Shown piece by piece: positions 4,452-53,570 of a stretch of DNA of 64,000 nucleotides. Source of the DNA: a virus; the IMG/VR virus record IMGVR_UViG_3300044801_000208, positions 1-64,000 of that record; one strand, written 5' to 3'. The notes under the pieces were generated by a model. That model was not told where the DNA came from, did not search any database, and worked only from the letters and a program-made list of their open reading frames with translations. The translations under genes were made by a program, and so were the position numbers. Numbering within the stretch: the stretch's first letter is position 1; the number at the start of each line of letters is the position of its first letter.

Positions 4452-4949
4452 TCATACTTTCCCAAAATTTGTAAGCGCAAATTCACCGAAATATAAACGA
4501 GCGGCGGCGTCGTATACTAAAGCAGCTTCACATTCAGTCCCAAACAGACCCAAATGCTTGCGTTTCCCGTTCATCCCGATCTGGGCTACCCATCTGCCCG
4601 AAGCCTTATGAAAACTCACCCCTTTGTATGAACTCGTTCCGCCTGAGCGCACACGCTGATTCCCTTGGTTCCCTTTCTTAACTGTGACTCTAAGGTTGTG
4701 TTTTTGACAGTTCAACCCGTTATGATCTTCGTGATCTACTTCTACAGCCGGATCAGTGACCCCCTTCACGAAGCGGTGCAAATTTATGCACACTGTTTTG
4801 TTGTCTTTTCGTTTTCCGACCCTGACGGTGCGACTTGCGTATACGGTATTTTTATCTATCCTAGCGATCCACCTGTACTGAGACACGGCGACGTAATCTT
4901 CATCGTCGATGAAAGCAACGTAGCCCTTTGTGAGAGGAATCTCTTTCAC
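4452..4949 (-). CDS. HNH homing endonuclease with AP2 domain
   Basis: GTG 4949 gives 165 aa and overlaps the stop of the upstream peptidase gene (GTGA), which is why this start is chosen over more distal ones. An N-terminal beta-rich region (PLTKGYVAFIDDEDY) leads into an HNH core (LHRFV, EVDHEDHNGLNCQKHNLR). The C-terminal half (SSYKGVSFHKASGRWVAQI, then KHLGLFGTECEAALVYDAAA) is an AP2-type DNA-binding domain. This layout is typical of phage group I intron or free-standing homing endonucleases. The gene is less GC-rich than its neighbours, in line with recent acquisition. Confidence 0.88.
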   Translation of the reverse strand: MKEIPLTKGYVAFIDDEDYVAVSQYRWIARIDKNTVYASRTVRVGKRKDNKTVCINLHRFVKGVTDPAVEVDHEDHNGLNCQKHNLRVTVKKGNQGNQRVRSGGTSSYKGVSFHKASGRWVAQIGMNGKRKHLGLFGTECEAALVYDAAARLYFGEFALTNFGKV

Positions 4950-5689
4950 GGTCTCTCTATAGACGGAAACTCGGGAATTGGCAAAACAATTTTCGGTGGG
5001 TAGGGATAATCCCCCGTCACAACTATATGAAAACATGAACCATTAAGAAGCTCCTCTTCCGCTATGACCATCCCGAGGTCCGACAGGTACTTCAGCTTCC
5101 TCTGGATGAACCTCACCTGCGCGAGCGTCAGGCCGCGCCTCTGGAGGTCCACCGCCACGCCCGCGAGGTGCGCGGACGCCGTCTCCCCGTGGACCGGGGC
5201 GGCGTTGTGGTTCCAGCGGCGGAGCCAGGTCTGCGTCCTCTCCGTGCGGACGGCGGAGTTCACCTGGATCGGCTCCCCGAACTCGGCGTAGTACTCGCCG
5301 CCGAGCTCCTCAAGGAACGCGTTCACGAACGGCCGCACGTAGCGCCGCTTCGCCTCCAGCCTGGGGCTGACGCGGACGCCCTCGCCGCCCGTGATGGGCA
5401 CCAGCTCTTCCTCGCGCACCAGGGACTTCAGGACCCTGTCGTCGCGGATGCGCGGCAGGCCCATCTCGTCGATCGCGGCGTTCTGGGCGAGCAGGTTCTC
5501 GTGGGACGGCACGAAGACGCGGCGCTCCCACCACTTGGGCTGCCTCGGACGCCTGTGCCTCCGCGACACCGTCTGGTACCTCGCGGTGACACAGTGGGCG
5601 GGCGGGGCGAGCAGCGCGATGCCGACGAGGATCGCGGCGATGCCGATGGCGGCGTTCGCCCTGCTGAGTCCTGGGGGCGTCTGGATCAT
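4946..5689 (-). CDS. DUF5715-type peptidase (M15-like), likely lysis or wall enzyme
   Basis: A 247-aa protein with an N-terminal hydrophobic segment (residues about 13-30) that could be a signal peptide or membrane anchor. The core has VNSAVRTERTQTWL and, near residue 165, GETASAHLAGVAVDLQRRG, then CFHIVVTG. The H...D and final H arrangement resembles M15/VanY-type D,D-carboxypeptidases and the DUF5715 family I associate with Acidobacteria. An endolysin or peptidoglycan-trimming role is inferred. A homing endonuclease is inserted exactly at its stop codon. Confidence 0.7.
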   Translation of the reverse strand: MIQTPPGLSRANAAIGIAAILVGIALLAPPAHCVTARYQTVSRRHRRPRQPKWWERRVFVPSHENLLAQNAAIDEMGLPRIRDDRVLKSLVREEELVPITGGEGVRVSPRLEAKRRYVRPFVNAFLEELGGEYYAEFGEPIQVNSAVRTERTQTWLRRWNHNAAPVHGETASAHLAGVAVDLQRRGLTLAQVRFIQRKLKYLSDLGMVIAEEELLNGSCFHIVVTGDYPYPPKIVLPIPEFPSIERP

Positions 5690-5904: not shown

Positions 5905-6048
5905 TCGTCGCCTCTGTCCTTTAGATGCCGCCCCGAGGTGCAAAGGGGTCTTTTTCATTCTATCACACCTGGAATGCTACTGTTTTCAACGGGTTGCGCC
6001 CAGACGATTCCGCCAGAGGGGCCGTATACTACACAAGGAGGGAACGAC
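5905..6048 (+). promoter_or_regulatory. Divergent promoter region
   Basis: Between divergent genes. On the + strand GGCCGTATACTACAC (about 6019-6034) contains a TATACT-type -10 box, followed by an AAGGAGGG binding site before ATG 6049. On the minus strand TTGAAA (about 5989-5994) followed by TGATAGAAT could be a leftward promoter. Assignment is by inspection only. The stretch around 6007-6035 is nearly repeated at 9803-9831 (see findings). Confidence 0.4.
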
Positions 6049-6876
6049 ATGGCGCAGGGACGCATGACAGACCCGAAGGCGATACTGTCCTTCATGACCG
6101 CTGGCAAGGCGACGATCACCCTCGTCGGCAAGCAGGAGCGGTTCACCTACAAGGTCAGCGCCGCCCCGAAGCGCAAGCCGACCGACCCCGACACCTGGTT
6201 CGTGAGCCTCCTGAACGGCCCCGACAACTACCTGAACTACGCCTACATCGGCATCCTCCAGCGCGGCGAGGACGGCAGGCTGTTCTTCAAGTGGACCTCC
6301 AAGGCCCGCGTGGGCGAGACCGCCCTGTCCGTGCGCGGCTTCAAGTGGGCGATCGTCTACTTCGCGGACAACCGCTTCCCCAAGAACCTAGAAGTCTACC
6401 ACGAGGGCAGGTGCGGCCGCTGCGGTCGCAAGCTCACCGTGCCTGAGTCCATCACGAGCGGCTTCGGCCCCGAGTGCATCGGGCTGGTCGGCCCCGTGAT
6501 CGGCCTTGAGGAGGAGAAGGACAACGCAGAGGAGCGGGGCTTGCACTTCGACCCGCAGGTGTACCTCGGCGGCGAGGCGACACCCGTGCTTTTCAAACTC
6601 AACGACTTCGGCTTTCGCGGCGCTCACGACACCAAGGCGGTCAAGGCGATCGGCGGGTACGCCGCCGCACGCGCCCTGTACGCGCCAGCCAAGAAGATCA
6701 CGAACGTCACGGGCATGGACGCCGAGATTCGCCGCCGCGTCGCGGAGTACAAGGCGGAAGCGCCCGAGAACTACTGGCAGGACGGCGAGCTCCGCACCGA
6801 GCGCGAGGCGTTCAGCGTCGCCTACAACAAGTTCCGCGAGGAAGTCCAGGCGGAGATGAACGGGGGCCGACGATGA
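6049..6876 (+). CDS. DUF6011-domain protein
   Basis: ATG 6049, preceded by AAGGAGGG, gives 275 aa. The N-terminal half is beta-rich. Around residues 120-146 lies CGRCGRKLTVPESITSGFG-PEC, a treble-clef-like zinc site characteristic of DUF6011, common in phage and plasmid proteins of unknown function. The C-terminal 100 residues are helical and charged. It leads a + strand group (6049-7650) with tight spacing. A role in handling a nucleic acid is only a guess. Confidence 0.75.
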   Translation: MAQGRMTDPKAILSFMTAGKATITLVGKQERFTYKVSAAPKRKPTDPDTWFVSLLNGPDNYLNYAYIGILQRGEDGRLFFKWTSKARVGETALSVRGFKWAIVYFADNRFPKNLEVYHEGRCGRCGRKLTVPESITSGFGPECIGLVGPVIGLEEEKDNAEERGLHFDPQVYLGGEATPVLFKLNDFGFRGAHDTKAVKAIGGYAAARALYAPAKKITNVTGMDAEIRRRVAEYKAEAPENYWQDGELRTEREAFSVAYNKFREEVQAEMNGGRR

Positions 6877-6906: not shown

Positions 6907-7125
6907 ATGTACGACGTAGAAGTGCTGGTCGACCTGGGCGGCGACGAACTGCGAATCACGGTCGCGCTCGGCGCGAGCGCCGAGGACGGGACGCGCACGG
7001 TGATGACCCCGTGGTTCCCCACGGAGGACGGGCTCGACGAGTTCTGCGAGCGGCACATTGGCCGCTTCCAGTTCAAGGTGGTCGCGGAAGGACTGCCGGA
7101 CGCTACGGAATGGGAGGCTGTATGA
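6907..7125 (+). CDS. Small hypothetical protein (72 aa or about 83 aa)
   Basis: From ATG 6907 the frame gives MYDVEVLVDLGGDELRITV, a beta-rich protein ending DATEWEAV. The codons just upstream (DFINEVAL) look like real coding too. If one G of the GGG run at 6877-6879 is dropped, translation would begin at ATG 6873, overlapping the stop of the DUF6011 gene (ATGA). Either start is plausible. No family recognised. Confidence 0.6.
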   Translation: MYDVEVLVDLGGDELRITVALGASAEDGTRTVMTPWFPTEDGLDEFCERHIGRFQFKVVAEGLPDATEWEAV

Positions 7126-7484
7126 GACTGATGATCGGACGTCTGCAAACTAACGCGCGGGAGTACCCCAGGTTCACGGCATTGGTCGCCTCAATCTACG
7201 GCGGCGCAGCGGTCCTAGCGGCTATCGCAGCCCTCGCCTGCTCGAACTCGCTCCGCAGTGTCCTGCAATGGGCTGGCGTCGCCATCCTAGCGGTGCTCGC
7301 GCTCGACATCTTGACCTACATCTGGGTCGTAGCGGACGCGGGACGCACTGACCGGTTCGTAGAGTTAGTCGACGACTTCGAAGGCAAGCGCAACGGTGAC
7401 GAGTGCCCCGACTGCGGCAGCGACGAGTGCCAATGTCCGCCAGAAGAGGAAGAGGAGTACAACGACGAGGACAGGAGCCTATAG
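7122..7484 (+). CDS. Two-TM membrane protein with cysteine-rich acidic tail
   Basis: ATG 7122 overlaps the previous stop (ATGA), giving 120 aa. Hydrophobic segments at about residues 20-40 and 45-70 should span the membrane. The cytoplasmic-looking tail contains CPDCGSDECQC and then a run of glutamates. It directly precedes the pilin-like gene, separated by 10 bp holding AGGAGG. The function is unknown; proximity suggests it is expressed with the pilin. Confidence 0.65.
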   Translation: MRLMIGRLQTNAREYPRFTALVASIYGGAAVLAAIAALACSNSLRSVLQWAGVAILAVLALDILTYIWVVADAGRTDRFVELVDDFEGKRNGDECPDCGSDECQCPPEEEEEYNDEDRSL

Positions 7485-7494
7485 GAGGACCCCC

Positions 7495-7650
7495 ATGCTC
7501 AAGCACCTGATACAGAACGAGGAGGGACAAGACGTCGCGGAGTACGCGGTGATGCTTGCCGTGATGCTGGTCATCGTGATCGGCGTCGTCCGCCTCATCG
7601 GCAGCAACGCGAGCAATGTGTTCAGCGAGATAGGGAGCAAGATTCAATGA
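7495..7650 (+). CDS. Flp/Fap-type IVb pilin-like protein
   Basis: ATG 7495 with ATAGGAGGA at good spacing; 51 aa. The N-terminus is MLKHLIQNEEG followed by QDVAEYAVMLAVMLVIVIG. This matches the Flp prepilin pattern: cleavage after Gly, Glu at +5, Tyr at +6, then a hydrophobic helix, with a short tail. Flp pilins are assembled by Tad machinery in the host envelope. In a phage genome this is unusual; it could be a captured host gene that interferes with, or imitates, host pili (inference). Confidence 0.85.
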   Translation: MLKHLIQNEEGQDVAEYAVMLAVMLVIVIGVVRLIGSNASNVFSEIGSKIQ

Positions 7651-7976
7651 ACCGCAACGGCGTGGAGTTTGCAAGCGCGAAGCGCGGCGAGAACAGGGAC
7701 TGAACATGGGCGGAGCTGGCCGTTGATCACGTCGGTCTCCACGACTTTCGCGGCCCTGACGGGCGCGGCGGACGGCGGGGGAGGCGGGGGCGGGGGAGGC
7801 GGGGGAGCGACCAGGTAGGTCATGAGCTGCGCCGCCGGGAGCGTGTCGGTGTAGTACAGCGGGATCAGCAGGGCGACGCCGAGGAGCGCCGCCTCGATGA
7901 GGAAGGCGACCCCAGTGTACCGACCGCGCTTGTCCTTGAGCCTGCCGCCAGACTCCAAAAGGCTGTCTTCGAACAT
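7644..7976 (-). CDS. Truncated TonB-type energy transducer (N-terminal part)
   Basis: ATG 7976 gives 110 aa. The N-terminus MFEDSLLESGGRLKDKRGR is, to my knowledge, the hallmark of acidobacterial TonB-family proteins. It is followed by one membrane helix (about residues 22-45) and a run of 13 prolines (about 59-71), then KVVETDVINGQLR. Beyond that point the family normally continues to the C-terminal TonB domain, but here the sequence changes to an unrelated 22-residue tail. The receptor-contacting domain is therefore absent. It is convergent with the Flp pilin, overlapping by 7 bp. It may act as a dominant-negative anchor (inference) or be a decaying capture. Confidence 0.8.
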   Translation of the reverse strand: MFEDSLLESGGRLKDKRGRYTGVAFLIEAALLGVALLIPLYYTDTLPAAQLMTYLVAPPPPPPPPPPPSAAPVRAAKVVETDVINGQLRPCSVPVLAALRACKLHAVAVH

Positions 7977-7992
7977 GGGCTTTACCCCTATC

Positions 7993-8367
7993 TTAGTGCC
8001 CCGTATTAGGTTCCTCGTCCTTCCAGAGCTCGGCCAACTCGGCCGTGATCTCGCGCCTGCCCTCGCGCCGCTCGAACTCCTTCTGCGCGTGCTCCGAGTG
8101 CGGGTGCTGGAACTCCCTGGCCTCCGGCGGCAGGACGGTGCAGAGGGTGCTGCGCTGCTTGTCGTACACGACATTAAGGGACCTGTCCTGGAAGTCCACC
8201 CGCCACAGCGAGCGGTTGTTGGACTGCTTGGCCACGAACTCCGCCTGGTTCGTCTGAATCTTCTGGACGATCTCGCGCCTCGCGTCCTTGTTCAGGGCGA
8301 GGTCGTACCGCTCGGCCGCCCTCTTCTTAGCGTGGGCGTTCAAAATTTTGCTAGTTTTCTTAGTCAT
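7993..8367 (-). CDS. Hypothetical basic protein (124 aa)
   Basis: From ATG 8367, an N-terminal helical region (HAKKRAAERYDLALNKDARR) leads into a beta-type segment (WRVDFQDRSLNVVYDKQRS, then LCTVLP). This layout is loosely like RelE/BrnT-type small RNases, but I see no diagnostic catalytic set, so I leave the function open. It is preceded by a homing-endonuclease remnant whose stop overlaps this start. Confidence 0.6.
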   Translation of the reverse strand: MTKKTSKILNAHAKKRAAERYDLALNKDARREIVQKIQTNQAEFVAKQSNNRSLWRVDFQDRSLNVVYDKQRSTLCTVLPPEAREFQHPHSEHAQKEFERREGRREITAELAELWKDEEPNTGH

Positions 8368-11561: not shown

Positions 11562-12091
11562 GAAATTGCTGTTTTTGCTCCTAGATTGAGATGGAAGTGC
11601 ACGCGCCTAAGCCAGGCCACAAACTCTTCGTAGGATAAGTCTGACTTGGCCTGATTGCAGATTCGGCAGCAGGGAACACAGTTGCCGCTCACGTATCCAA
11701 GCGCGTTGTCTTTGCGGTCCACGCCGTTGTACACGTACACAGTCGGGCAGGTCGGCTGCTTACGGACCTGCTTCGGCTCCACGCCGCAGTAGTGGCAGTT
11801 ACCAGATGCCAGTGTCCTGAACTCGTTGAAGGACAGGTCGAAGATGTACCCGCGCTTCGCCGCCTTCGCCCTGTAGGCGGCAAACAATGCGTTCGCGGCG
11901 GCGGCTCCGGGGGGCAAGGAATTTTTTCCCGTTAGGCATCCGCAGCTTTTGGTGGGTCGTTTGCGGCTGCGGAGCTTGTCCTGACTTATGGCCGCAGTCT
12001 CCCCACAGGCGCACTGACACTCCCACTTCCTGCCGGGCAAGCGGCGTAAAACCGTCAATAAACCTATCGGCTGATTCGTCAGATCAATCAC
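11549..12091 (-). CDS. HNH homing endonuclease
   Basis: GTG 12091 overlaps the stop of the NusG-like gene (GTGA) and gives 180 aa. Residues 1-60 carry the family start (IDLTNQPIGLLTVL) and a zinc ribbon (CQCACG...SCGC). The C-terminal half has CHYCGVEP, VYNGVDRKDNALGY and NCVPCCRICNQAK, the second metal site and HNH-like core shared with the genes at 17152, 29116 and the remnant at 21945. A typical free-standing homing nuclease. Confidence 0.85.
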   Translation of the reverse strand: MIDLTNQPIGLLTVLRRLPGRKWECQCACGETAAISQDKLRSRKRPTKSCGCLTGKNSLPPGAAAANALFAAYRAKAAKRGYIFDLSFNEFRTLASGNCHYCGVEPKQVRKQPTCPTVYVYNGVDRKDNALGYVSGNCVPCCRICNQAKSDLSYEEFVAWLRRVHFHLNLGAKTAISNPY

Positions 12092-14484
12092 TTTTTCTTC
12101 TCTTTGAACCGCACACACCAACAAGGTCCAGTAGCTTGTTTAGTACTCACCCACGGGTGGATGGCGTGGTTCGACACGTCGGTGCACCTCATCCACGCGC
12201 CCTTGGGCGACAGCTTGTGGGCCTTGCGCTCGTGCAGGCACTCCCCGCACTTGTCGGTCGGCAGCTTCTTGCGCTTCTTCGGCTCCTTCTTGGCCGCCGC
12301 GAGCCTCTTGACCTCCGCCGCCGGGAGGGTCTTCGCCCTGGACTTCTGGCGGGCCTCCCTGCTGCGCCCGTCCTTGCAGACCTCCTGGGTCAGCACGGGG
12401 ATGCCCAGGGCGGGGTCGATCTTGGCGATCTGGGCGGCGCTGAACTTGTACTCCTTGCCGTACTTCTTGATGATCTCCCGGTAGTTCGAGAGGCTCGGGT
12501 CGATCTTGGCGAAGTAGTCCTGGCGCAGCCTGTCCTTGACGATGCAATTATGCGCCACTACCCCATTTGCCACATAGGTTTCTGTGTTCGCCACCGAAAA
12601 GTTGTGGACGTTTCCGTCGAACTCCACCAACGCGACGGATTTTACAGGCATGCAATAGTAACCAGCGTGATAAAAGGTGTCATGACGCATCTCTTTTCCT
12701 GTGTCTGTCCACCAGATCATCCAGCTTTTAGCGCGGGAGCCGAAATTGGTTTGCTCCCCGTCATGGTAATGACTAATGCTCGGATAGCATTTTAGGGCGA
12801 CCAGTAGGTACCAAATTTGGTAAGCGAGTTGGTATGACGCTGTAGTCGCCCAGTGTCCTCCGTTGCCGTGTTCCGCATCGTGCCCGTCCCCCTCGGCGTA
12901 CCCGTCTATCAAGCCCCTTAAACACTCCTCATCCCATCCGTACAGAAACTCAGGGATGTGCTTCGTGTAGCGATCCTCCCCGAACCACTCACGGAACGTG
13001 GCCGCCAGCGACACGGAATTCACCCGCACCACACGGTAGTTTTCGTGTTCATCAACATCGGCGGTTACACCAAATTGCGCGAGCGCCGCCTGCACTTTTA
13101 CAACAGATGTTTTTTTGTCTAAGGTAAGAGAGAATGATGTTTCGCCTGTTTTGCCGCCATCCGCTATGTACAACCCGAACAACCAAGCCAATTCTTTGTT
13201 GGGCTTGATGCCTGTAATGATCTTCTTGGCGAGATGGTGTGATGACTCCTGAAAAATCGGAACACTACCAACTTTGGGCAATTTGACCGGGCACAGCAGA
13301 AAGTCGCTGTCCCGTACTTCTGACGCAGGAACCCATACCGGCGCGGGGTTCTTCACGCTCTTGGGGCTGGTTCCCCAATGCGGCCTCCACGTCTGCCCTT
13401 TGCTGTTCTTTTTTGACCGCAAGACAAGTAGCCCATGCTCTGGAGTGCTACGGAAAGGCAAGTTTCCGAGCAAACTGACTTCAACAAGTTTGCCTTTATA
13501 CGGTCTCGCCATGTAGTCGGTCAAAGCTTGAATATCCCCGTTTAAGTCTAACACATCATTGGAGATAAGTCCATCGCTCGCTCTGAATGGAAGAAGTCCC
13601 TGCATGACGGTCTCGCCGGGTAAGCAATAGACGATGAACAGGTTCTTGGGGGCCTTGATCTCTTTCCGCTTCAGGGAGGCGACGACGGCCTTGGCGATCT
13701 CCATCGGGTTGTGCTGCCCCTCGATGAGCACGAGCTTCTTGACCAGCGCGGTGACCGTGCGCTGCCGGGAGTGCTTCTTCGGCTCGTCCGTCGGGACCTC
13801 CGCCACCTGCTCCACGGGCGGGGCGGACTCGTCCAGGTGCAGGTCCTCCTCCACCATCGCGGCGGCGGCCGCCGGGAAGTCGCGGAACAGGTCGGCGACG
13901 AGCTGGCAGTAGTAGTAGACGCGCTGCTCCTTCGGGACGTGCGAGAGGTTCAGGAGGTTGCGGACGGGGGTCTCAAGGAGGATGGACTTGGTGCGGAGGG
14001 TGACGCGCACGACGGCGCGGCCGTCGCCGATGATCTCGACCGTGCCGCAGAAGTCGCGGGTCTCGCCGTTCAGGATGCGGACGAAGGAGCCGACCTCGAT
14101 GCCGATCGCGCGGCGCTGGTGCTCGTCGGCCGCCTGCTTGATGAGCGACTGGACGTAGGCGTCCTCAACGGGGATGGCCTTGGAGGGGCGGTTCGTGTCC
14201 CCCTCCGTCACGAGTCCACAAATTCCCGTAACAGATTTTAATCTAAGTAATGCTGAAAAATTAGTAGAGCGGACAAAAAGGTACGGACCCGTTGAAAGCT
14301 CGAAAATATCCAAGTCGCGCTTTACCACAGGGATAAAAATTTCAATGGGGGCGTCTCGGAATATCCCGCCGAGCGCCTTGCCCATACGCCGCAAAGTGGA
14401 TTCGGCTGTTTTCTCGCTTCTGATCTCACATAGAAACCAAGGCTGCCCCTGCACCTTTGATACGTCGCCATAGGTCAGAATCAA
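12088..14484 (-). CDS. NusG-like transcription factor with intein and C-terminal extension
   Basis: TTG 14484 overlaps the stop of the upstream HNH-like gene (TTGA), giving 798 aa. Residues about 10-95 (GQPWFLCEIRSEKTAEST; ending TGICGLV) resemble the NGN domain. Residues about 128-180 (EVGSFVRILNGETRDFCGTV) resemble a KOW domain, so the N-terminal third looks like NusG/RfaH, which binds RNA polymerase and modulates pausing and termination. A 360-aa intein interrupts the C-terminal extension. The spliced protein would be about 438 aa, ending in a Lys-rich region and cysteine pairs (CGEC, CWC). The C-terminal domain is unknown to me. Confidence 0.75.
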   Translation of the reverse strand: MILTYGDVSKVQGQPWFLCEIRSEKTAESTLRRMGKALGGIFRDAPIEIFIPVVKRDLDIFELSTGPYLFVRSTNFSALLRLKSVTGICGLVTEGDTNRPSKAIPVEDAYVQSLIKQAADEHQRRAIGIEVGSFVRILNGETRDFCGTVEIIGDGRAVVRVTLRTKSILLETPVRNLLNLSHVPKEQRVYYYCQLVADLFRDFPAAAAAMVEEDLHLDESAPPVEQVAEVPTDEPKKHSRQRTVTALVKKLVLIEGQHNPMEIAKAVVASLKRKEIKAPKNLFIVYCLPGETVMQGLLPFRASDGLISNDVLDLNGDIQALTDYMARPYKGKLVEVSLLGNLPFRSTPEHGLLVLRSKKNSKGQTWRPHWGTSPKSVKNPAPVWVPASEVRDSDFLLCPVKLPKVGSVPIFQESSHHLAKKIITGIKPNKELAWLFGLYIADGGKTGETSFSLTLDKKTSVVKVQAALAQFGVTADVDEHENYRVVRVNSVSLAATFREWFGEDRYTKHIPEFLYGWDEECLRGLIDGYAEGDGHDAEHGNGGHWATTASYQLAYQIWYLLVALKCYPSISHYHDGEQTNFGSRAKSWMIWWTDTGKEMRHDTFYHAGYYCMPVKSVALVEFDGNVHNFSVANTETYVANGVVAHNCIVKDRLRQDYFAKIDPSLSNYREIIKKYGKEYKFSAAQIAKIDPALGIPVLTQEVCKDGRSREARQKSRAKTLPAAEVKRLAAAKKEPKKRKKLPTDKCGECLHERKAHKLSPKGAWMRCTDVSNHAIHPWVSTKQATGPCWCVRFKEKKK
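12547..13626 (-). other. Intein in the NusG-like protein
   Basis: It starts with Cys (CLPGETVMQG) and ends VVAHN directly before the +1 residue Cys (CIVKDR), the canonical class 1 intein junctions. Two LAGLIDADG motifs (LAWLFGLYIADGG and LRGLIDGYAEGDG) show a DOD homing endonuclease domain that may be active. The length is 360 aa. Splicing would join FIVY to CIVKDRLRQD. Confidence 0.9.
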
Positions 14485-15299
14485 TGTGCACCCGCCGATA
14501 AAGAGCAAAGTTTACACGCGGGGTTTACGATATTTCGCTTGGAGTGCCAGCGAATGTGATTCCCAAACAAGCCGCCTTTGGCGCAGCTTTCTGGTGTAGG
14601 CATTCTGTAAATTTCTCCGCTTTCAACCTTCAGGCGACCGCTTGCGCGTCCGCCCCTAGCCCGGATTTCCTGCGTAATGATTCCAGCGAGTCGTCCGCTC
14701 TCAACGTTCTTTTTCCCCTGTGTCCTGCCCAATTCCTGTATATGCCCGCTTGCAACATGGTTTTGTCCGCTAGTGCGCCCACCCTTGGCTCTAACTTCTG
14801 CGGTCGCTATTCTTGCCAGATGACCGCTCTCAGCATTTTTCTTCCCCCAGACTCGCCCCAACTCCTGTATACGCCCACTATCGACGGCTTTACGCCCAGC
14901 AGCCTGCGCAGCGAGTCGCTGGTGCTCAGGCGTCCGAAATTTGGCGAACTCCGCTTGCCCGCGAGCGTAAAGCTCCGCATACTTGGGCAATTCGGCAATG
15001 TCAATGTGAGCGGCGCAATGGCGATTCGCCATCATGTAAAACGTGCGCTGGAACGAAACAGTTTGCGGGGCGCACAAAGTGAGGTGGTAATGAGCCCGGA
15101 AATGGTTCTCCACGGACAGCCGAACGAGGTTGCTGTGATCCTTGCGAAACTCGGAGAACTCCGTCTTGGGAAGAATGTGGTGTCGGTGCCCCCCAGTCGC
15201 CAGCGGCGGAAGCGACTCAATGAAAGCGAAATACGGCGTGAAGTCCGCGCCGGGAACGCGGGCGGACAGGACTTCGCGTAAAACGTTGGGAACCATCAT
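14481..15299 (-). CDS. HNH-like homing endonuclease with NUMOD-type repeats
   Basis: From ATG 15299 (ATG 15296 and GTG 15302 are alternatives) about 272 aa. The N-terminal third has HRHHILPKTEF and VRLSVENHFRAHYHLTLCAP, the His-rich core seen in phage HNH nucleases. The middle and C-terminal parts are four or five imperfect repeats of the type GRxxGKKNVESGRLAGI, resembling NUMOD DNA-binding repeats. GTATTAA lies 10 nt upstream of the start. Its stop overlaps the start of the NusG-like gene. Confidence 0.75.
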   Translation of the reverse strand: MMVPNVLREVLSARVPGADFTPYFAFIESLPPLATGGHRHHILPKTEFSEFRKDHSNLVRLSVENHFRAHYHLTLCAPQTVSFQRTFYMMANRHCAAHIDIAELPKYAELYARGQAEFAKFRTPEHQRLAAQAAGRKAVDSGRIQELGRVWGKKNAESGHLARIATAEVRAKGGRTSGQNHVASGHIQELGRTQGKKNVESGRLAGIITQEIRARGGRASGRLKVESGEIYRMPTPESCAKGGLFGNHIRWHSKRNIVNPACKLCSLSAGAH

Positions 15300-27542: not shown

Positions 27543-28709
27543 TTGATCCTCCCAGAGTGGAACTCTGGGATTCCTGACTGAATTATGCGCAGGCATAACT
27601 CATCTCGTGGGCCAATCCAGCCCCGGCAAATAGCGTGTTACAGGCCGCATTGACATCGCGGTCGTGCTCCGCTCCACAGGCGGAACATCGCCATTGCCTT
27701 ACCGACAATCCTGCTAGTCCTGTAGGTCCGGTTGGCTCCCCACATACCCAGCAAGTCTTGGTGGAAAACTTACTCTCAGGTTCGACATACGTCCCACCGC
27801 TTTTGGGCATCTTGTAGGACAGCATTTGCCGCAACTGATAGTGTGCCGAAGAAGCCACACTCTTGCCAAATCTCTTTGCGATTCCCTTGATTTTGTCTTT
27901 ACTGAACGCAATAAACACATTCTCTGCCACTAACCGTCGCGACAGTTTATGATTCCTGTCCTTCTTGCGATTGGCGATGCGTTCCTGAATCCTCGCCGCC
28001 AATGTTTTGTCGTGCCCCCGTTGGGCTTGGGCGAGGCGTTCCGCACCTGCTTCCAACTCCCGTGGGTGCTCGATGATTTCCCCGTCAGATGTTGTGAGCA
28101 GATTCGAGAAGCCGGGGTCAATGCCGATCTCTCCGAAAGCCAATCGCTCAATTGGCTTAGGGTATGCATCTATAAACAAGCAGAGGTGCCAGCCTGACGC
28201 TCGTTTAACCAGCCGTCCACACTTTATCTTGCCCTCCGGCAACTCCTGCTTGTGGAAGCGAAGACTGCCAAGTCCGGGCAATGTGATGCGGGTTCCTTTC
28301 GGTGCCTTGATTGGGTCTGGAAATGGAATGCTGGTCAGCCTGTTCCGCATCCCCTTTAGCCGTGGTTTGCCAGCGATTTTCCTGAAGCAGCGCTTCCACG
28401 CATCATGGACGGTACAAAGAACGCCCTGTAGCGCGTGGCTAGGAATGCCCAGCTTCTCTCCGTGGTTCGCTAAGATGTTTTGGAACTCTTGCCTACAAAA
28501 ATAGATTTTGTCCTTGGCGTTTAGCTCAATCTTCCTCACGGCGAAATTGTAGACCGACGCCAGATGGTAGAGCCATTGGTCGCAGGTTTGTTCCTGCACC
28601 TTGCAGGGTCGAAGTTTGAGTTGAACTTGGATCATATATTCCTAATACCGCAAAGGCATTCGCTAACCCAGACTGGAAGTCTGGGATTGCGCCCATAAGA
28701 GCCGTTCAA
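27543..28709 (-). mobile_element. IS200/IS605-type element carrying tnpB only
   Basis: Right end TTGATCC plus hairpin CCCAGAGTGGAACTCTGGG (27551-27569); left end hairpin CCCAGACTGGAAGTCTGGG (28667-28685) followed by ATTGCGCCCATAAGAGCCG. There is no tnpA, so movement would need a transposase in trans. The right-end hairpin region, transcribed from tnpB, is where the omega/re-RNA would end, with the guide in the flanking clamp-gene leader. Confidence 0.75.
27583..28635 (-). CDS. tnpB: TnpB RNA-guided nuclease (IS605 OrfB)
   Basis: ATG 28635; 350 aa. RuvC-I aspartate in GEIGIDPGFSNLL (about 175), zinc ribbon CWVCG...CSACG (about 295-320) and RuvC-III aspartate in HDRDVNAACN. The usual RuvC-II glutamate is not at its normal place: the aligned segment reads VFIAFSKDKIKGI. 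I recall a TnpB subfamily with a relocated glutamate, so activity is not excluded. GTATTAG lies 6 nt before the start. Confidence 0.9.
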   Translation of the reverse strand: MIQVQLKLRPCKVQEQTCDQWLYHLASVYNFAVRKIELNAKDKIYFCRQEFQNILANHGEKLGIPSHALQGVLCTVHDAWKRCFRKIAGKPRLKGMRNRLTSIPFPDPIKAPKGTRITLPGLGSLRFHKQELPEGKIKCGRLVKRASGWHLCLFIDAYPKPIERLAFGEIGIDPGFSNLLTTSDGEIIEHPRELEAGAERLAQAQRGHDKTLAARIQERIANRKKDRNHKLSRRLVAENVFIAFSKDKIKGIAKRFGKSVASSAHYQLRQMLSYKMPKSGGTYVEPESKFSTKTCWVCGEPTGPTGLAGLSVRQWRCSACGAEHDRDVNAACNTLFAGAGLAHEMSYACA

Positions 28710-32240: not shown

Positions 32241-35200
32241 TTACGGCGCGTACAGCGTCGGGATGTGCGGCTCGTAGAGCATCGTGTCCGCCGTCTGCGC
32301 CATCCCCACGTACACAATCCACCCGACCTGATTGATGAGCGTCACGTAGTCCTGCGTCAGTGCGCCCTGCGGCCCGGCGTAGATCGGATTCCCGACCGTG
32401 AAGGACGCGCCCCGTATCGTGTACTGCCCGCCGTAGGTGGTACCGACCGGGGCGTCCGCGCCCGCCACGCCCTGGACCGGCACTATGCCGTCTGGGTTCG
32501 GGGCCAGCAGAGCGCCCGTGGAGTCGACCGCGTAGAACGCGTTGCCCTGGGTCTCAGGCGTCGTGGCGTAGGCTCCGTACAGCGTAGGGTCGGCCGCCGT
32601 GAAGCCCGTGTAGGCCGGGCCGGGGCCGATCAGGGTCGCGACCGTGGTCACCACGCCGTTGAGGTACGTCGCCGCCCCCAGGTTCCTGAACACCACGAGG
32701 CTGCCGACGGAGAAGTGGTTCGCCGCCGTGATCGTCAGCACGCTCCCCGCCGACTCCGCCACGTTGGTGACAGGCGGCACGAACGGGTCGATCGGGGCCA
32801 CGGTGCCGTCGTCCTGCACGAACACGACCGTACCTGGCGGGAACGGGCTGGTCCACCACGTCGGCGGAGCCTCCACCACGAAGTCGATCGTGTCCCCGGC
32901 GGACGCGACCGGGATGACGGGGAGCGGCGTGATCGAGGTCAGGATCATGCTGAACAGGCTACCGGGGAGGACCTGCACGAGGGGCGCGGTGAGGTTGCTG
33001 GACGCCTCGACCATGACGATGTCCCCGGCGGTGAAGTTCCCGGTGAAGGAGAAGGGCACGGTCAGCATCCCAGGCGCGTCGAGCTCGTACGAGTTGGTGT
33101 AGATCGGCGTGCCGTTCTGGGTCACGGTCACCGTGAACAGCCCCTCGGCGGCCGTGGAGAAGATGAGCTGCCCGTTCCCGGAGTACGCGCCCGTGGCCCG
33201 CAGGGTAAACGTCGTCGGGCTGGTGACGTTGCCCGTGTAGTCGAACACGATCTGGTCGAACGCGACGGGGGTCTGCGCGGGGGCGGCGGCCACGGTCGTG
33301 GTGTCGGCCTCCGCGTCAACGTTGAACCCGACCTGCTGCGCGTTCGCTATCAGGGCGTTGGCGGTGGCGACCTGCGCCGCGACCGCGCCCTGGAACTGGT
33401 TCTTGAACGTCTGGAGCCCCGCGTAGCTCAGGTTCGTCCTCAGCATGGCCATCTGCACGGGGATGGGCTGCCCCTGTATGTCGGGGCGGTTGAGGAACGC
33501 CTCCGCGTCCAGCTCCGTGGGGATCGTCACCCAGCCGTTGGTCGCGGGCGTGGGCGTGGAGCTGTTGGTGAACGTGACGATCGGCGCGACCGGGATCGGG
33601 AGGAGCGGGGTGCCCGGCGTCCGGCTGCGGTTGCGGCTGGCCGTGTCGGCCTGCAACGCCTGGTACGCTGACGCGCTGCCCAGCGGGTCGACCGCACCGT
33701 CTAGCGTACCGAAGTACGTCACCGCGAACTGCACGAGGTACGGGTCCTGCGCCAGGAGCGTCGTCAGGCTGGTGGAGAAGTCGCGCCAGAACTGGCTGAA
33801 GCGGTCCACTGTCGAGGCGACCGCGAACGGGCTGTAGGTGTAGCGGTTGCCGAGCCTCGGCGACTGGTACGTGGTGTCGTTCAGGATGTTCACGGACGCC
33901 GCCTGGATGACCGCCGCCATGACCGCCGCGTAGGCGCTCGGGAAAGTGATTGGCACGGGGAACTCCGCCGTGCCCTCGCCGAGGGTCACCGTGGTCGTGC
34001 CGCTGCCCGCAGGGGTAGGGACGTAGTCGAGGTCGGAGCCCGTGGGGCCGGAGAGGTAGTTCGAGTCCTGGTAGCCGTCCCACGTCTTGTTGCGCGTGTA
34101 CCCGAGCAGGGACGCCTCGACGTAGGAGAGCTTCCACAGCAGCGTGAAGAGCTTCTGGCCGCTCAGAGAGTTGAGCAGGGTGTACAGCGGCAGCACCGGG
34201 GCGTTCTGGTAGACGACCCCCTGGGGGCTGACCGCCCACGTGGACGGGTTCGCGCCCGGCTCCAGGTTCGTGTTCCCGGAGTTGGCGATGTAGAGGTTCC
34301 CGCCGAAGGTCACCACGTCATTCTGCTGGTACTGGACCGTGGGGTCCCAGATGCTCATGTACTCCGGCCCGTCGCCGCTCGCGTCGTTGTACGGCACGGG
34401 GACGGTGTTCAGGTAGGTCACGGACGGCTGTATGTATGCCAGGAACGCCGCCTCGAAGTTCGGTATCCAGTTGCCGCCGCGCCCGGCCCTGGCGGCGGCT
34501 AGGTAGAGGAGCCACGCGGACATGATGAACGGGTCGTAGTTGTTCGCGACGATCTCTCCGAGGTTGATGTAGTGGACCAGGTCCTTGCGGAGCTGCGGCT
34601 GGCGCACGGCGAGGTTCGGGCTCGCGTAGTCCGGGTCGCTCGGCTCCACGGTGTCGCCGCGCAGGGACGGCACGATGGACACGATGTTCGCCGTGTACGT
34701 GGACGCGGGCAGGCTGTAGGCGTCGACGATGGTGTGCGGGTCGGGGACCGCGCCGTCCATAGAGGAGTTCGGGTTGAAGTCCGGGCCGAACACGGGGGAG
34801 CTCGTCGGGTCCACGGACGGGGAGCCGCCGAGCGGCGGGATGTACTGCGCGGTGCCGAGCGACAGCCCGCTGTTCGTCAGGACCATCTGCGGGATGCTCG
34901 GGCCGAGCACGCCGGAGCCGTTCAGGCCGGGGATCGTGAGCGAGCACTGGCTGAACGAGAAGTTGAAGTTGAAGACGGGCGGCTTCGTGAACGCCTTGGC
35001 GAAGTTCGCGAGCGGCGCGAAGTTGAACCCGTTCCAGTTCCACATGCCCTCGGGCAGGAGGTTCGGGATGGACGGGAGCGCGGGGAGCCCCCAGTTGCAG
35101 ATGTTGTTCAGCAGGTTGGCCAGGGCGTTCAGGCTCGACTGCACCATCTGGACCATGGACTGCTCTATCGCCAGGAGCGTGTTGAGGTTGGTCGTCACCG

Positions 35201-35552
35201 CCATCACCAGCCCCAGAATCTCCTGCTGGAACTTGTTCGCCGTCTGGATGATGCTGATGCCGTCCGCGATGTACTTGGGGACGCGGGCGTGGTGCCCGAG
35301 CTGGCCGTCGACCGCCAGCTGGTTCATGTGCGTGTACGTCTCGATCTGGTTGACGAGGAGCTGCTTCTTCTGGAGGATTATGTTGTTCGCGTCCGTGATG
35401 CTGGACTCAAGGACGCGGCCCTGCTCCATCGCCTGCTGGTAGTAGTGCGAGATGGTCGGGTCGTTGAGCGGGTTGACGCGGTTCACCGCGCCCTTGGCCT
35501 TGATGGGCCACAGCAGCGCGTTCTGCTCGGCTTGTGTTAGATTATCCGCCAT
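32241..35552 (-). CDS. Large tail protein with carbohydrate-binding segment (1103 aa)
   Basis: ATG 35552 overlaps the GIY-YIG stop (TAATG). The N-terminal 200 residues are helical (YQQAMEQGRVLESSITDANN; MVQSSLNALANLLNNICNWG). A segment near residue 400 (IWDPTVQYQQNDVVTFGGNL, YIANSGNTNLEPGANPSTW) fits a ChiC-type carbohydrate-binding module (CBM5/12). The C-terminal half is beta-sandwich-like. It belongs to the tail/baseplate block; a host-surface interaction role is inferred. It converges with the fibre accessory gene, one base apart. Confidence 0.7.
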   Translation of the reverse strand: MADNLTQAEQNALLWPIKAKGAVNRVNPLNDPTISHYYQQAMEQGRVLESSITDANNIILQKKQLLVNQIETYTHMNQLAVDGQLGHHARVPKYIADGISIIQTANKFQQEILGLVMAVTTNLNTLLAIEQSMVQMVQSSLNALANLLNNICNWGLPALPSIPNLLPEGMWNWNGFNFAPLANFAKAFTKPPVFNFNFSFSQCSLTIPGLNGSGVLGPSIPQMVLTNSGLSLGTAQYIPPLGGSPSVDPTSSPVFGPDFNPNSSMDGAVPDPHTIVDAYSLPASTYTANIVSIVPSLRGDTVEPSDPDYASPNLAVRQPQLRKDLVHYINLGEIVANNYDPFIMSAWLLYLAAARAGRGGNWIPNFEAAFLAYIQPSVTYLNTVPVPYNDASGDGPEYMSIWDPTVQYQQNDVVTFGGNLYIANSGNTNLEPGANPSTWAVSPQGVVYQNAPVLPLYTLLNSLSGQKLFTLLWKLSYVEASLLGYTRNKTWDGYQDSNYLSGPTGSDLDYVPTPAGSGTTTVTLGEGTAEFPVPITFPSAYAAVMAAVIQAASVNILNDTTYQSPRLGNRYTYSPFAVASTVDRFSQFWRDFSTSLTTLLAQDPYLVQFAVTYFGTLDGAVDPLGSASAYQALQADTASRNRSRTPGTPLLPIPVAPIVTFTNSSTPTPATNGWVTIPTELDAEAFLNRPDIQGQPIPVQMAMLRTNLSYAGLQTFKNQFQGAVAAQVATANALIANAQQVGFNVDAEADTTTVAAAPAQTPVAFDQIVFDYTGNVTSPTTFTLRATGAYSGNGQLIFSTAAEGLFTVTVTQNGTPIYTNSYELDAPGMLTVPFSFTGNFTAGDIVMVEASSNLTAPLVQVLPGSLFSMILTSITPLPVIPVASAGDTIDFVVEAPPTWWTSPFPPGTVVFVQDDGTVAPIDPFVPPVTNVAESAGSVLTITAANHFSVGSLVVFRNLGAATYLNGVVTTVATLIGPGPAYTGFTAADPTLYGAYATTPETQGNAFYAVDSTGALLAPNPDGIVPVQGVAGADAPVGTTYGGQYTIRGASFTVGNPIYAGPQGALTQDYVTLINQVGWIVYVGMAQTADTMLYEPHIPTLYAP

Positions 35553-50988: not shown

Positions 50989-51063
50989 TGGTAGCCCTGA
51001 GCGGTATCGATCCGCCTTCCGCGCCTTGAGAGGGTGCTGTCCTAGCCAGTAGACGACAGGGCC
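50989..51063 (-). tRNA. tRNA-Glu (CTC)
   Basis: Acceptor GGCCCTG pairs with CAGGGCT before ACCA; the anticodon loop CTCTCAA gives anticodon CTC. CCA is encoded. One A-C mismatch in the anticodon stem. First of the minus-strand RNA cluster by coordinate. Confidence 0.85.
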
Positions 51064-51186
51064 ACTTTCTGCTGGTACAGCTCGCGCCCGCCCAGGCGCG
51101 GTTGCTTGCGCCAGCGGAGCGGCGGGCGGGGAACCCACTCCGGCGCTGAAAGTCGCACTCTGGCCTCTGAGTTAACAGCGCGAACT

Positions 51187-51262
51187 TGGTAGGGTATAGG
51201 AGAATCGAACTCCTCATCATCTGATTGAAAGTCAGAGGTCCAAACCGATAGACGGATACCCC
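51187..51262 (-). tRNA. tRNA-Glu (TTC)
   Basis: Acceptor GGGGTAT/ATACCCT, anticodon stem TCTGA/TCAGA with loop CTTTCAA, canonical T loop TTCGATT, encoded CCA. A well-formed cloverleaf. Confidence 0.92.
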
Positions 51263-51295
51263 ATCTCTAAATTTACTCCCGCGTGCTCCTAAATT

Positions 51296-51371
51296 TGGTG
51301 GACCTAGTCGGGATCGAACCGACGACCTCTTCCATGCCATGGAAGCGCGCTCCCAGCTGCGCTATAGGCCC
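51296..51371 (-). tRNA. tRNA-Ala (GGC)
   Basis: Acceptor GGGCCTA/TAGGTCC, anticodon stem CTTCC/GGAAG with loop ATGGCAT, T loop TTCGATC, encoded ACCA. Confidence 0.9.
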
Positions 51372-51385
51372 AGCGAACGGCTTTC

Positions 51386-51453
51386 GGCAGGTACAGGATT
51401 CGAACCCGCGTCTCCGGCTGCCCGGAATCCTAAGCCACTAGACGAACCCCTAC
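51386..51453 (-). tRNA. Degenerate tRNA
   Basis: The T arm (GCGGG TTCGAAT CCTGT) and a Glu-like D arm (TCGTCTAGTGGCTTAGGA) are recognisable. However, the anticodon arm has only a 4-nt loop (TCCGG GCAG CCGGA) and the acceptor ends do not pair well; CCA is missing. Probably a decayed tRNA. Confidence 0.4.
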
Positions 51454-51487
51454 TCGCCGTTCTTTGCGTCGTGCACGGACGCAATCT

Positions 51488-51563
51488 TGGTAGCGCACGA
51501 GGGACTCGAACCCTCATTTCACACGCTGAGAACGTGGTTGCCTAGCCGTTAGCAGAGTGCGCC
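51488..51563 (-). tRNA. tRNA-Glu (CTC), second copy
   Basis: Acceptor GGCGCAC/GTGCGCT, anticodon stem CCACG/CGTGT with loop TTCTCAG, T arm GAGGG TTCGAGT CCCTC, encoded ACCA. Different in sequence from the copy at 50989. Confidence 0.85.
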
Positions 51564-51569
51564 GAAACT

Positions 51570-51645
51570 TGGTGGACCTAAGGGGGCTCGAACCCCTGAC
51601 CTCATCGTTGCGAACGATGCGCTCTCCCAACTGAGCTACAGGCCC
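51570..51645 (-). tRNA. tRNA-Ala (CGC)
   Basis: Acceptor GGGCCTG/TAGGTCC, anticodon stem CATCG/CGATG with loop TTCGCAA, T loop TTCGAGC, encoded ACCA. Confidence 0.9.
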
Positions 51646-51655
51646 AACTTCAAAC

Positions 51656-51732
51656 TGGAGCGGCTGGCGGGATTTGAACCCGCGATCTCTTCCATGGCAA
51701 GGAAGCATTCTACCAGGCTGAACTACAACCGC
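51656..51732 (-). tRNA. tRNA-Gly (GCC)
   Basis: Acceptor GCGGTTG/CAGCCGC, anticodon stem CTTCC/GGAAG with loop TTGCCAT, T arm GCGGG TTCAAAT CCCGC, encoded TCCA. Confidence 0.92.
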
Positions 51733-51746
51733 GTATTTCCAATCTT

Positions 51747-51815
51747 TGGAGCGAGAGACCGGACTCGAACCGGCAGTCTGAGCACACTGTCGTTGTAATC
51801 CATTCCACACCGCTC
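51747..51815 (-). tRNA. Degenerate tRNA
   Basis: The T arm (CCGG TTCGAGT CCGG) and 3' end CGCTCCA are intact, but the 5' half does not form a normal D or anticodon arm and the acceptor pairs only in part. Likely a decayed or rearranged tRNA. Confidence 0.35.
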
Positions 51816-51875
51816 ATAGTCAAAATTTTTGCTGCGTTTACGTCCCAGTCGGTCGATGGCTTTTACCCCATCGCG

Positions 51876-51990
51876 TCAGTCGGGGCATTCGCCGAGGCTG
51901 ACGGACATTCCGTGGTCGTCGAATCTCGTAGCCGAAGCTACGGCGTTTTTCTACCCACTTAAGGGAGTCCACGCGGATGCCACGCAGCAA
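51876..51990 (-). CDS. Possible small gene between tRNAs, frameshifted
   Basis: From TTG 51990 (TTAGAGG upstream) the frame reads LLRGIRVDSLKWVEK. The natural continuation one frame over is NAVASATRFDDHGMSVSLGE to a TGA at 51876. Removing one A from the AAAAA run at about 51949-51953 joins them. Function unknown. The rest of 51816-52001 shows no other gene. Confidence 0.35.
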
Positions 51991-52001
51991 ACCTCTAAAC
52001 T

Positions 52002-52076
52002 TGGAGCGGGTTACCGAAATCGAATCGGTCTCTGTGGCTTGGAGGGCCACGGCACCGCCAGTTATACCTAACCCGC
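52002..52076 (-). tRNA. tRNA-Gly (TCC)
   Basis: Acceptor GCGGGTT/AACCCGC, anticodon stem GTGGC/GCCAC with loop CCTCCAA, T arm CCGA TTCGATT TCGG, encoded TCCA. Position 33 is C instead of the near-universal T. The 3' end of the HNH gene runs 9 bp into it. Confidence 0.85.
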
Positions 52077-52562
52077 TAAACGATAAAACTTTCCACACTG
52101 ACTACTTTCTCGCGTTTGTTTATTGGTAGCGATCAGCCCCTTGTTCCTGTCCTCCGCTGTCTTTACTGCGTGACAGTTCGCACAACGTACGTCACATTTG
52201 GCTATTTCGTCCAAAACTCGCTGCCGACCTTTAGTCCAACCTTGGGCCAAATTGAACTTCTTTTCCTTTGGATCGCGATGGTCGAAGTGCAGGGCTGCTG
52301 CGTATTCCTTGTACCCACAATCCTTGCACCCCAGTTCCAGCTTTACAGAGTCAATCCATTTTCTGCGAGCGGCATACCGGTAATCTCTTGCACGACGGTT
52401 GCAGATAGTTTTTGTTTCTTTACGCTCTTCCGGCGTTTTTACCTGCGTTGAATCTTTGCAGACCCGTGTACAGAAAAATATTTTGTGCTTACACAGCTTG
52501 TACCGCGACGGGTATATGTCAAAGTCATTTTTGCAAACCCAACATTGAACCGTTATCATCAC
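52068..52562 (-). CDS. HNH endonuclease in the tRNA cluster
   Basis: Start ATG 52562 or 52559 after GGGGGAG; 164 aa. N-terminal zinc pair (CWVCKNDF...CTRVC), basic middle, then CKDCGYKEYAAALHFDHRDP and CDVRCANCHAVKT, an HNH core. It lies between tRNA-Gly and the RNase P RNA gene and is much richer in AT than the RNA genes. A mobile insertion in the cluster. Confidence 0.85.
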   Translation of the reverse strand: MMITVQCWVCKNDFDIYPSRYKLCKHKIFFCTRVCKDSTQVKTPEERKETKTICNRRARDYRYAARRKWIDSVKLELGCKDCGYKEYAAALHFDHRDPKEKKFNLAQGWTKGRQRVLDEIAKCDVRCANCHAVKTAEDRNKGLIATNKQTRESSQCGKFYRLAG

Positions 52563-52606
52563 TATTTGCTCCCCCTACTTTGAATACTGTAGAAGGAGCA
52601 AATAGT
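52563..52606. repeat. 12-bp inverted repeat between HNH and RNase P RNA genes
   Basis: ACTATTTGCTCC and its perfect complement GGAGCAAATAGT are 20 bp apart, with a smaller CTAC/GTAG nested inside. It can act as a bidirectional terminator (TTAATTT follows on the + strand) or as an insertion-site mark. The HNH ribosome binding site lies in one arm. Confidence 0.75.
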
Positions 52607-52608
52607 TA

Positions 52609-52970
52609 ATTTACGCGACCTATAAGCGGGGTTCTGTAAGCACCGAAGTGCCCGACAGCCATTCGTCTAATCCACCTATTACTAGGCGGCTCAAGCCCCT
52701 AACCCGCAGATTGATAACGAACCGAGCAAGCTCTCTCTGCCTATTTAGGGTTGCTTCACGCAAGGTTTGCCATGCAACGACTGTTACCAGCCGCCCGGTG
52801 GTCTCTTAAACCGCCTTTTCACCCTTACCGTCTTGCGACGGCGGTATATTCTCTGTGGCACTGTCTATCACGGTTACCCGTGTCCGGGTGTTACCCGGTG
52901 CGCTGCTCTATGTAGCCCCGACTTTCCTCCCCCGTAAAATCACAGCGGCGACTGTCCGGTCAACGTAAAA
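52609..52970 (-). ncRNA. rnpB: RNase P RNA (bacterial type A)
   Basis: All universal landmarks are present in order on the minus strand. P1 is TTTACG-TT-GACC pairing with GGTC-G-CGTAAA. GACAG of P2 pairs with CTGTC near 52655. CR-I GAGGAAAGTCGGGGCT lies at 52914-52929. TGCATGGCAAACC (J11/12) is followed by GTGAAGCAACCCTAAATAGG. A GCACTTCGGTGC hairpin precedes CR-V ACAGAACCCCGCTTATAGG (52619-52637). RNase P cleaves 5' leaders from pre-tRNAs. It sits inside the phage tRNA cluster; no rnpA was seen. Confidence 0.96.
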
Positions 52971-52972
52971 TT

Positions 52973-53049
52973 TGGAGGTCCGGGGGAGAATCGAACTCCC
53001 GCATTTTCACGTTTGCAGCGTGACGCCTTACCGTCTTGGCTACCGAACC
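52973..53049 (-). tRNA. tRNA-Cys (GCA)
   Basis: Acceptor GGTTCGG/CCGGACC, anticodon stem CACG/CGTG with loop CTGCAAA, T arm GGGAG TTCGATT CTCCC, encoded TCCA. Its 3' end is 3 nt from the 5' end of the RNase P RNA. Confidence 0.92.
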
Positions 53050-53056
53050 AAACTAA

Positions 53057-53162
53057 TTGGATCAAGTGCTCTACTACTGAGCTACACCCGCCATCTGTCG
53101 ATAGCCGAAGCGTGACAGTGGGCGGGAGGGCGGGTACGAGACCGCCGACCTCCTGATCCAAA
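53057..53162 (-). tRNA. tRNA with permuted halves (Trp-like)
   Basis: On the minus strand the 3' half comes first (GGATCAGGAGGTC, T arm around GGCGG...CCGCC, acceptor CTCCCGC-CCA; 53119-53162). A 26-nt hairpin CTGTC...GACAG (53093-53118) follows, then the 5' half (GCGGGTG-TA, D arm GCTC AGTAGTA GAGC, then CTTGATCCAA; 53057-53092). GCGGGTG pairs with CTCCCGC (one mismatch), and CTTGA with TCAGG as anticodon stem. CCA in the joined loop suggests Trp. Confidence 0.55.
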
Positions 53163-53164
53163 CT

Positions 53165-53238
53165 TGGCGGGGCGTACGGGAGTCGAACCCGTGTGTCTCG
53201 GTAGACAGCCGAGTAAATTGCCGTCATTCTCACGCCCC
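53165..53238 (-). tRNA. tRNA-Asp (GTC)
   Basis: Acceptor GGGGCGT/ACGCCCC, anticodon stem CTCGG/CCGAG with loop CTGTCTA, T arm ACGGG TTCGACT CCCGT, encoded GCCA. The D arm is atypical. Confidence 0.85.
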
Positions 53239-53311
53239 GGACGCCGAGACGGGAATCGAACCCGTGAATAAACGTTTTGCAGACGTTCGCCTTACCACTT
53301 GGCTACTCAGC
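53239..53311 (-). tRNA. tRNA-Cys (GCA), second copy, 3' end atypical
   Basis: Anticodon stem AACGT/ACGTT with loop CTGCAAA, T arm ACGGG TTCGATT CCCGT, acceptor GCTGAGT with TCTCGGC (partly wobble). The 3' end reads GTCC instead of NCCA and abuts tRNA-Asp without a spacer. Confidence 0.75.
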
Positions 53312-53322
53312 TTACACAAAAA

Positions 53323-53483
53323 TTATGCCGCGATGATTAAGGGGCTGATCCCCATCCCGGCGCTCCGAAGAGCCTTCCGGTATCTATCGCCGTCGCGGAC
53401 GACACACTCTGAGCGCTGTATCCACGTCTTAGGTGGGTGTTCTTCACAGACCGCTAAGTCTGGTACTGGACAGCGCTCAAACT
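53323..53483 (-). other. Coding-like frame lacking a start codon
   Basis: The frame reads FERCPVPDLAVCEEHPPKTW, IQRSECVVRDGDRYRKALRS, then GMGISPLIIAA to a TAA at 53323, with a plausible zinc site. It runs back into tRNA-Ala with no ATG, GTG or TTG. It may be a gene remnant cut off by cluster rearrangement, or use a rare start. Confidence 0.35.
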
Positions 53484-53558
53484 TGGTGGACACAGGGAGA
53501 TTCGAACTCCATAGTTCTCATTGCAAGTGAGACGCATTCCCAATTATGCTACTGGCCC
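53484..53558 (-). tRNA. tRNA-Ala (TGC)
   Basis: Anticodon stem TCTCA/TGAGA with loop CTTGCAA, T arm GGAG TTCGAAT CTCC, encoded ACCA. The acceptor (GGGCCAG with TGTGTCC) has mismatches, so function is less certain. Confidence 0.75.
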
Positions 53559-53570
53559 ACATTCAAAACT

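Follow-up and report, generated by a model that had tools for sequence, protein, structure and literature searches.

Do a pilus subunit and a fragment of TonB that lie side by side in a viral genome act together on the host envelope, or are they unrelated neighbors? The window analyzed here is a stretch of 64,000 nucleotides (positions 1 to 64,000) of the linear, 97,808-base virus record IMGVR_UViG_3300044801_000208. The original prediction placed in it a complete Flp-type pilin and a TonB N-terminus, tail to tail, and read the two as one superinfection-exclusion module. Both open reading frames (ORFs) are present in this arrangement, with matches far beyond chance; they converge, and their stops overlap by 7 nt. 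The locus contains the following features:

4946..5689, minus strand: DUF5715 / M15-like endolysin with an apparent signal peptide; divergent neighbor, conserved in the clade
6046..6876, plus strand: DUF6011 phage protein, head of the pilin operon; clade marker
7122..7484, plus strand: 120-aa membrane protein, its gene directly upstream of that for the pilin; L010 and L109 have similar proteins
7495..7650, plus strand: Flp/Tad-type prepilin, 51 aa, a conserved phage gene; leader MLKHLIQNEEG, mature QDVAEYAVML...
7644..7976, minus strand: 110-aa ORF made of TonB residues 1-89 (anchor and proline run, 7976-7710) and a 21-aa non-homologous tail (7709-7647)
7647..7703, plus strand: 18-codon remnant of a gene (GMEFASS.. 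in L003 and L112) that relatives carry after the pilin; the TonB junction, at about 7704-7710, cuts it off
7977..7996, minus strand: leader of the TonB piece (CTAAGATAG..GGGG), like the leader of full-length phage TonB genes
7993..8367, minus strand: conserved 124-aa phage protein, 16 nt upstream of the TonB piece and co-directional with it; clade marker

The plus-strand run comprises the DUF6011 protein, a 72-aa protein, the 120-aa protein and, as the last gene, the pilin. Expression of both ORFs is plausible from the co-directional genes upstream of each; a simple scan found neither a bidirectional terminator nor a sigma-70 promoter between them. Elsewhere, and all on the minus strand, the window carries two IS605-type TnpB/Cas12f1-like ORFs (27586-28635 and 62673-63797), two proteins that both have LAGLIDADG and intein matches, a ribonucleotide reductase (57185-62296) and one other (12091-14508), 12 clustered tRNA genes with several repeated anticodons (50989-53646) and a tail-fibre-like protein (32244-35552) whose match to a CBM5/12 carbohydrate-binding module falls just short of the cut-off.

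The pilin in phages and hosts

The pilin gene runs from an ATG at 7495, preceded just upstream by an AGGAGG ribosome site, to a stop at 7648-7650, and its product is MLKHLIQNEEGQDVAEYAVMLAVMLVIVIGVVRLIGSNASNVFSEIGSKIQ. The Pfam model Flp_Fap (PF04964) matches this protein with E=0.0034 and 17.6 bits, below the curated cut-off of 32.2, which is one model's threshold for a 46-residue family rather than a biological feature; the same model matches seven of the ten phage pilins (best E 2.7e-5). Outweighing this score is a host relative (L065) that lies in a tad locus, directly upstream of RcpC/CpaB, a secretin and a T2SSE-type ATPase. The best bacterial matches share 65-77% identity with the pilin, and the prepilin peptidase site G/x4-E-Y is intact, with QDVAEY after Gly11, all of which bears out the predicted complete Flp-type pilin. 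Residues Q1, D2, E5 and Y6 are invariant in all 10 aligned phage pilins and all 80 host pilins, and Gly(-1) is found in 9 of these 10 and 80 of these 80, the one exception (L006) having Ala before the cut. A PDB profile search returned Caulobacter PilA (8u1k) and Flp pilin (8u2b) as weak (E 0.1-0.24) but ungapped matches. No T2SSE (Tad ATPase) match over the cut-off was present in the phage records G000, G007, G009 and G010, which may be partial, so that the pilin presumably feeds the host's Tad machine.

We scanned an alignment of the window pilin and nine viral loci against about 85,000 bacterial and archaeal genomes and obtained 416 relatives, whose best 80 all carry Acidobacteriota in their titles, most being Terriglobia from peat or soil. 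The close pilin subfamily (E below 1e-25) occurs in 4 of 121 sampled Terriglobia genomes, in 2-5 copies each, and TonB relatives occur in every Terriglobia genome sampled. In a 299-genome sample, the best matches to full-length phage TonB reach 65% identity and include G139, G001 and G006, three of the four genomes with the close pilin subfamily. The nearest isolated relative by the clade's terminase is Tunturi_5 (39.6% over 97%); the window's own 98-kb record has no match to this terminase, and the Tunturi_5 link therefore runs via relatives with the pilin locus. On these sequence matches the host is placed in Terriglobia (Acidobacteriota), in agreement with the acidobacterial host originally proposed from the TonB start.

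The pilin is kept at the same locus in relatives on contigs of 455, 463, 332 and 51 kb and is in place in five non-redundant contigs, the window included. Clade pilins are 54-82% identical, mostly above the values for two neighboring genes (36-54% and 44-69%). Against its phage relatives the pilin has a dN of 0.08-0.18, whereas dS is saturated or >1.3, and this combination indicates that it evolves under purifying selection. Two relatives that have the locus (L109 and L112) lack the pilin, which is therefore dispensable; in L112 the EFAS gene directly follows the DUF6011 gene, and in L003 the pilin sits between them. The pilin also occurs, with different neighbors, in other phage lineages (L005, L006, L007/L008 and L009), and those tested (L005, L006 and L009) have no match to the clade terminase. 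Phage pilins form no single supported clade in a 47-column tree, which has too few columns to resolve the number of captures. By its distribution and divergence, the pilin is a long-kept gene (moron) of the huge-phage clade.

The assembly core of the phage pilin is nearly identical to that of host pilins. Clade pilins differ from the 80 host pilins, whose conservation is overstated because they were chosen by similarity, chiefly at mature positions 3, 20, 29, 35 and 38. At position 29 the phage clade has Ser or Gly for the host Asn, and at position 38 Lys for Ala/Ser. Position 29 corresponds to Caulobacter PilA N43 by the ungapped PDB match, a lead rather than a test. N43 is contacted by phage PhiCb5 and is changed in a non-adsorbing strain, and N43R/T51A was found in a resistant strain (PMC11067988).

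The TonB piece and the TonB genes of sister phages

The TonB piece begins with an ATG at 7976, and its TonB-like residues 1-89 end at 7710. Six Terriglobia genomes encode full-length TonBs that share 58-66% identity with these residues, with E values as low as 1e-35, and the alignment of the residues to host and phage TonB includes the N-terminal membrane anchor and the proline-rich spacer. The TonB C-terminal domain (PF03544) is found neither in the window ORF nor anywhere in the 97.8-kb record; the description of a TonB N-terminus that keeps anchor and spacer and lacks its receptor-contact domain was thus correct. The last 21 residues of the ORF are unrelated to TonB and are read antisense to the 18-codon remnant. 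Past the TonB break, the plus strand holds MNRNGVEFASAKRGENRD followed by a stop, which is the start of the gene found after the pilin in L003 and after the DUF6011 gene in L112. As read from this junction, the TonB piece has replaced the gene after the pilin, with 18 codons left. The leader at 7977..7996 tentatively marks the probable extent of the imported segment.

An apparent absence of the TonB piece from viral and genome contigs proved to be a false negative of strict 8-residue single-sequence patterns and was overturned by an alignment query and a whole-genome search. The alignment query brought up six viral contigs in which TonB is complete, at 246-247 aa; three of these genes are distinct. 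Four of the huge-phage contigs also encode proteins with little beyond the TonB_C domain:

L114:8001-8741, L115:8001-8741, L116:8001-8744: complete phage TonB genes, downstream of the terminase
L171:1279-1689, L172:509-904 (minus strand), L173:1282-1695, L174:1279-1689: TonB_C-only proteins (131-137 aa, each apparently with a signal peptide) of huge phages G010, G007, G018 and G021

TonB_C (PF03544) is matched well over the cut-off in L114-L119. The complete genes share a position that lies downstream of both the terminase and a sigma-like gene, and form one clade (100/100) apart from 25 host TonBs. The window piece nests within this phage clade (100/99), which rules out a fresh capture from the host. 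Between the TonB-bearing contigs and the pilin-bearing contigs of 332-463 kb, terminase identity is 58-67%, which makes the two sets one phage clade. In these sister phages the full-length TonB lies at another locus and the same contig has no pilin, a statement valid, as for any lack of pilin or TonB in virus records that may be fragments, for the stretch seen. The intact sister genes together with the remnant at the junction argue that the window piece derives from a full-length TonB of the phage lineage. The predicted capture therefore stands for the pilin and fails for TonB, whose source is another phage gene rather than the host directly.

The TonB piece has a dN/dS of 0.10-0.12 against L115 and L116, and its third-position GC of 0.90 matches the window genes, against 0.56-0.67 in the other phage TonBs. 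These values indicate long residence under selection in a genome like that of the window phage, and they do not date the truncation. Relaxed selection is not evident in the stub, which counts against a mere remnant: either the truncation is very recent, in a gene that had long been resident, or a functional stub has been kept.

In the 455-kb relative (L175, G007:377500-385600), the TonB spot holds phosphoesterase-like and glycosyltransferase-like genes, named by eye rather than by profile, which suggests that the interval from the sigma-like gene to a conserved 196-aa gene is a cargo slot. The TonB_C-only genes of L173 and L174 adjoin a NAPRTase/NAMPT-like gene. In E. coli, free periplasmic TonB C-domains inhibit TonB-dependent transport, which makes the TonB_C-only proteins better candidates for TonB interference than the window stub. 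A search for a phage-borne ExbD or TonB-dependent receptor plug as TonB partners found none. What sister phages carry, a whole TonB and secreted TonB_C-only proteins, is more surprising than the pair that drew attention to the locus.

Possible roles of the pilin and the stub

Among the eight contigs with the locus, six have the pilin and one, the window, has the TonB piece. The search for the same pair in related phages found it in none of them, and this absence argues that the pair is not a conserved unit; the neighborhood is best read as chance, and the single exclusion module of the original prediction is not supported. Of the two things named there as jointly refuting it, one, that relatives lack the pair, holds. 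With tblastn, neither window protein had a match among phages and plasmids; because short peptide patterns were used to scan the viral collection, absence from it is weak evidence.

We consider it probable that the locus holds two separate things, a selected pilin that modifies host Tad pili and, beside it, a truncated remnant of a phage TonB. A host Tad (Flp) major pilin would have been taken up long ago by huge Terriglobia phages and retained by selection. The host prepilin peptidase would cut the phage prepilin after Gly11, and the product would mix with the host's own pilins in the inner membrane, where it would be built into host Tad pili or block them. The likely benefit would be control of the infected cell's pili, for example by making the pilus unusable for competing pilus-binding phages. 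The TonB piece is a shortened copy of the TonB gene native to the phage lineage; its recombination into the locus deleted the gene that had followed the pilin. It may have become a passive remnant, but an anchored stub, if produced, could occupy ExbB/ExbD. Homology, conservation, the host group and the phage origin and truncation of TonB are shown by the sequences, whereas prepilin processing, the effect on pili and the benefit are inferred. By analogy with known phage proteins, superinfection exclusion by the pilin is plausible, and exclusion via TonB interference is a reasonable guess.

Several other explanations compete with this one. That pilin and stub jointly exclude competing phages by poisoning the machinery of two receptors appears improbable: both are envelope components of host type, the stub retains anchor and spacer, purifying selection acts on both and each lies behind conserved co-directional genes, yet the pair is confined to the window among the contigs with the locus and the sister phages keep TonB at another locus, with no pilin on the same contig. 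The stub might instead work alone as a dominant-negative at ExbB/ExbD, lowering TonB-dependent uptake and phage entry, as could be expected from its intact 89-codon frame, low dN/dS, codon usage fitted to the window phage, kept leader and co-directional position behind conserved phage genes. We find this doubtful, given that the stub was found once, its 21-aa tail is the antisense of another gene, the simple scan gave no promoter and sister phages kept the complete gene. Hardly credible, in our view, is a lysis or other small membrane peptide that resembles a pilin; the endolysin-like gene nearby and the sub-threshold Pfam score speak for it, while against it stand the intact prepilin site and the 65-77% identity to pilins of bacteria, including one encoded in a tad locus.

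A further alternative turns interference into support. The phage pilin could aid piliation, so that infected cells attach or regain pili and progeny meet new hosts, and full-length phage TonB could boost nutrient uptake in an auxiliary metabolic role. Phage pilins keep the full assembly core and the processing site, sister phages have complete TonB with TonB_C intact, and a TonB-dependent receptor reported from a marine megaphage has been proposed to raise uptake (PMC9723777). However, the clade-specific changes at positions 29 and 38 would be unexpected if identity with host pili were the aim, and the hosts already have several pilin copies; we regard this reading as possible, if not the expected one. 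More speculative, and in our estimate rather unlikely, is an envelope kit of Terriglobia huge phages in which a Tad pilin that co-assembles with and re-faces the host pilus, complete TonB and the secreted 131-137-aa proteins would together retune the infected cell's pili and TonB transport, with the window stub as an N-terminal dominant-negative form.

Relation to known systems

Neither a phage-encoded Flp pilin nor a phage-encoded TonB is described in the part of the literature that we searched. Closest in kind to the window pilin are Flp/Tad (type IVb/IVc) major pilins such as Caulobacter PilA (PDB 8u1k, 8u2b), with the same short prepilin, G/xxxxEY site and single hydrophobic helix; the window pilin differs in being phage-encoded, with no Tad machine found there, and in scoring below the Pfam cut-off. 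Tunturi_5, the nearest isolate by terminase, is a 309-kb jumbo phage of Tunturiibacter, a host in Terriglobia (PMC11924767), and neither it nor any other record of the phage collection matches the pilin or the TonB stub.

Possible functional analogs of the pilin are Tip, Aqs1 and Zip of Pseudomonas phages D3112, DMS3 and JBD26, likewise small phage proteins that act on a host pilus system. These bind PilB or PilZ and limit further infection (PMC11656802), whereas the window protein belongs to the pilins, and its target would be Tad pili. The stub shares with Llp (T5) and Cor (T1, phi80) a possible phage interference at TonB-dependent receptors. Llp and Cor are superinfection proteins, lipoproteins that jam these receptors (PMC9586334), whereas the stub is a TonB anchor and sister phages have the whole TonB. 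Known phage inhibition of pili and TonB receptors thus uses unrelated small proteins; the phages described here, if our reading is true, would interfere with or support these systems by supplying replacements for host parts, namely the pilus subunit and, in sister phages, whole TonB. Our analysis further links soil phages of 300-460 kb, as a group, to Terriglobia; here the jumbo isolate Tunturi_5 offers an existing bench system.
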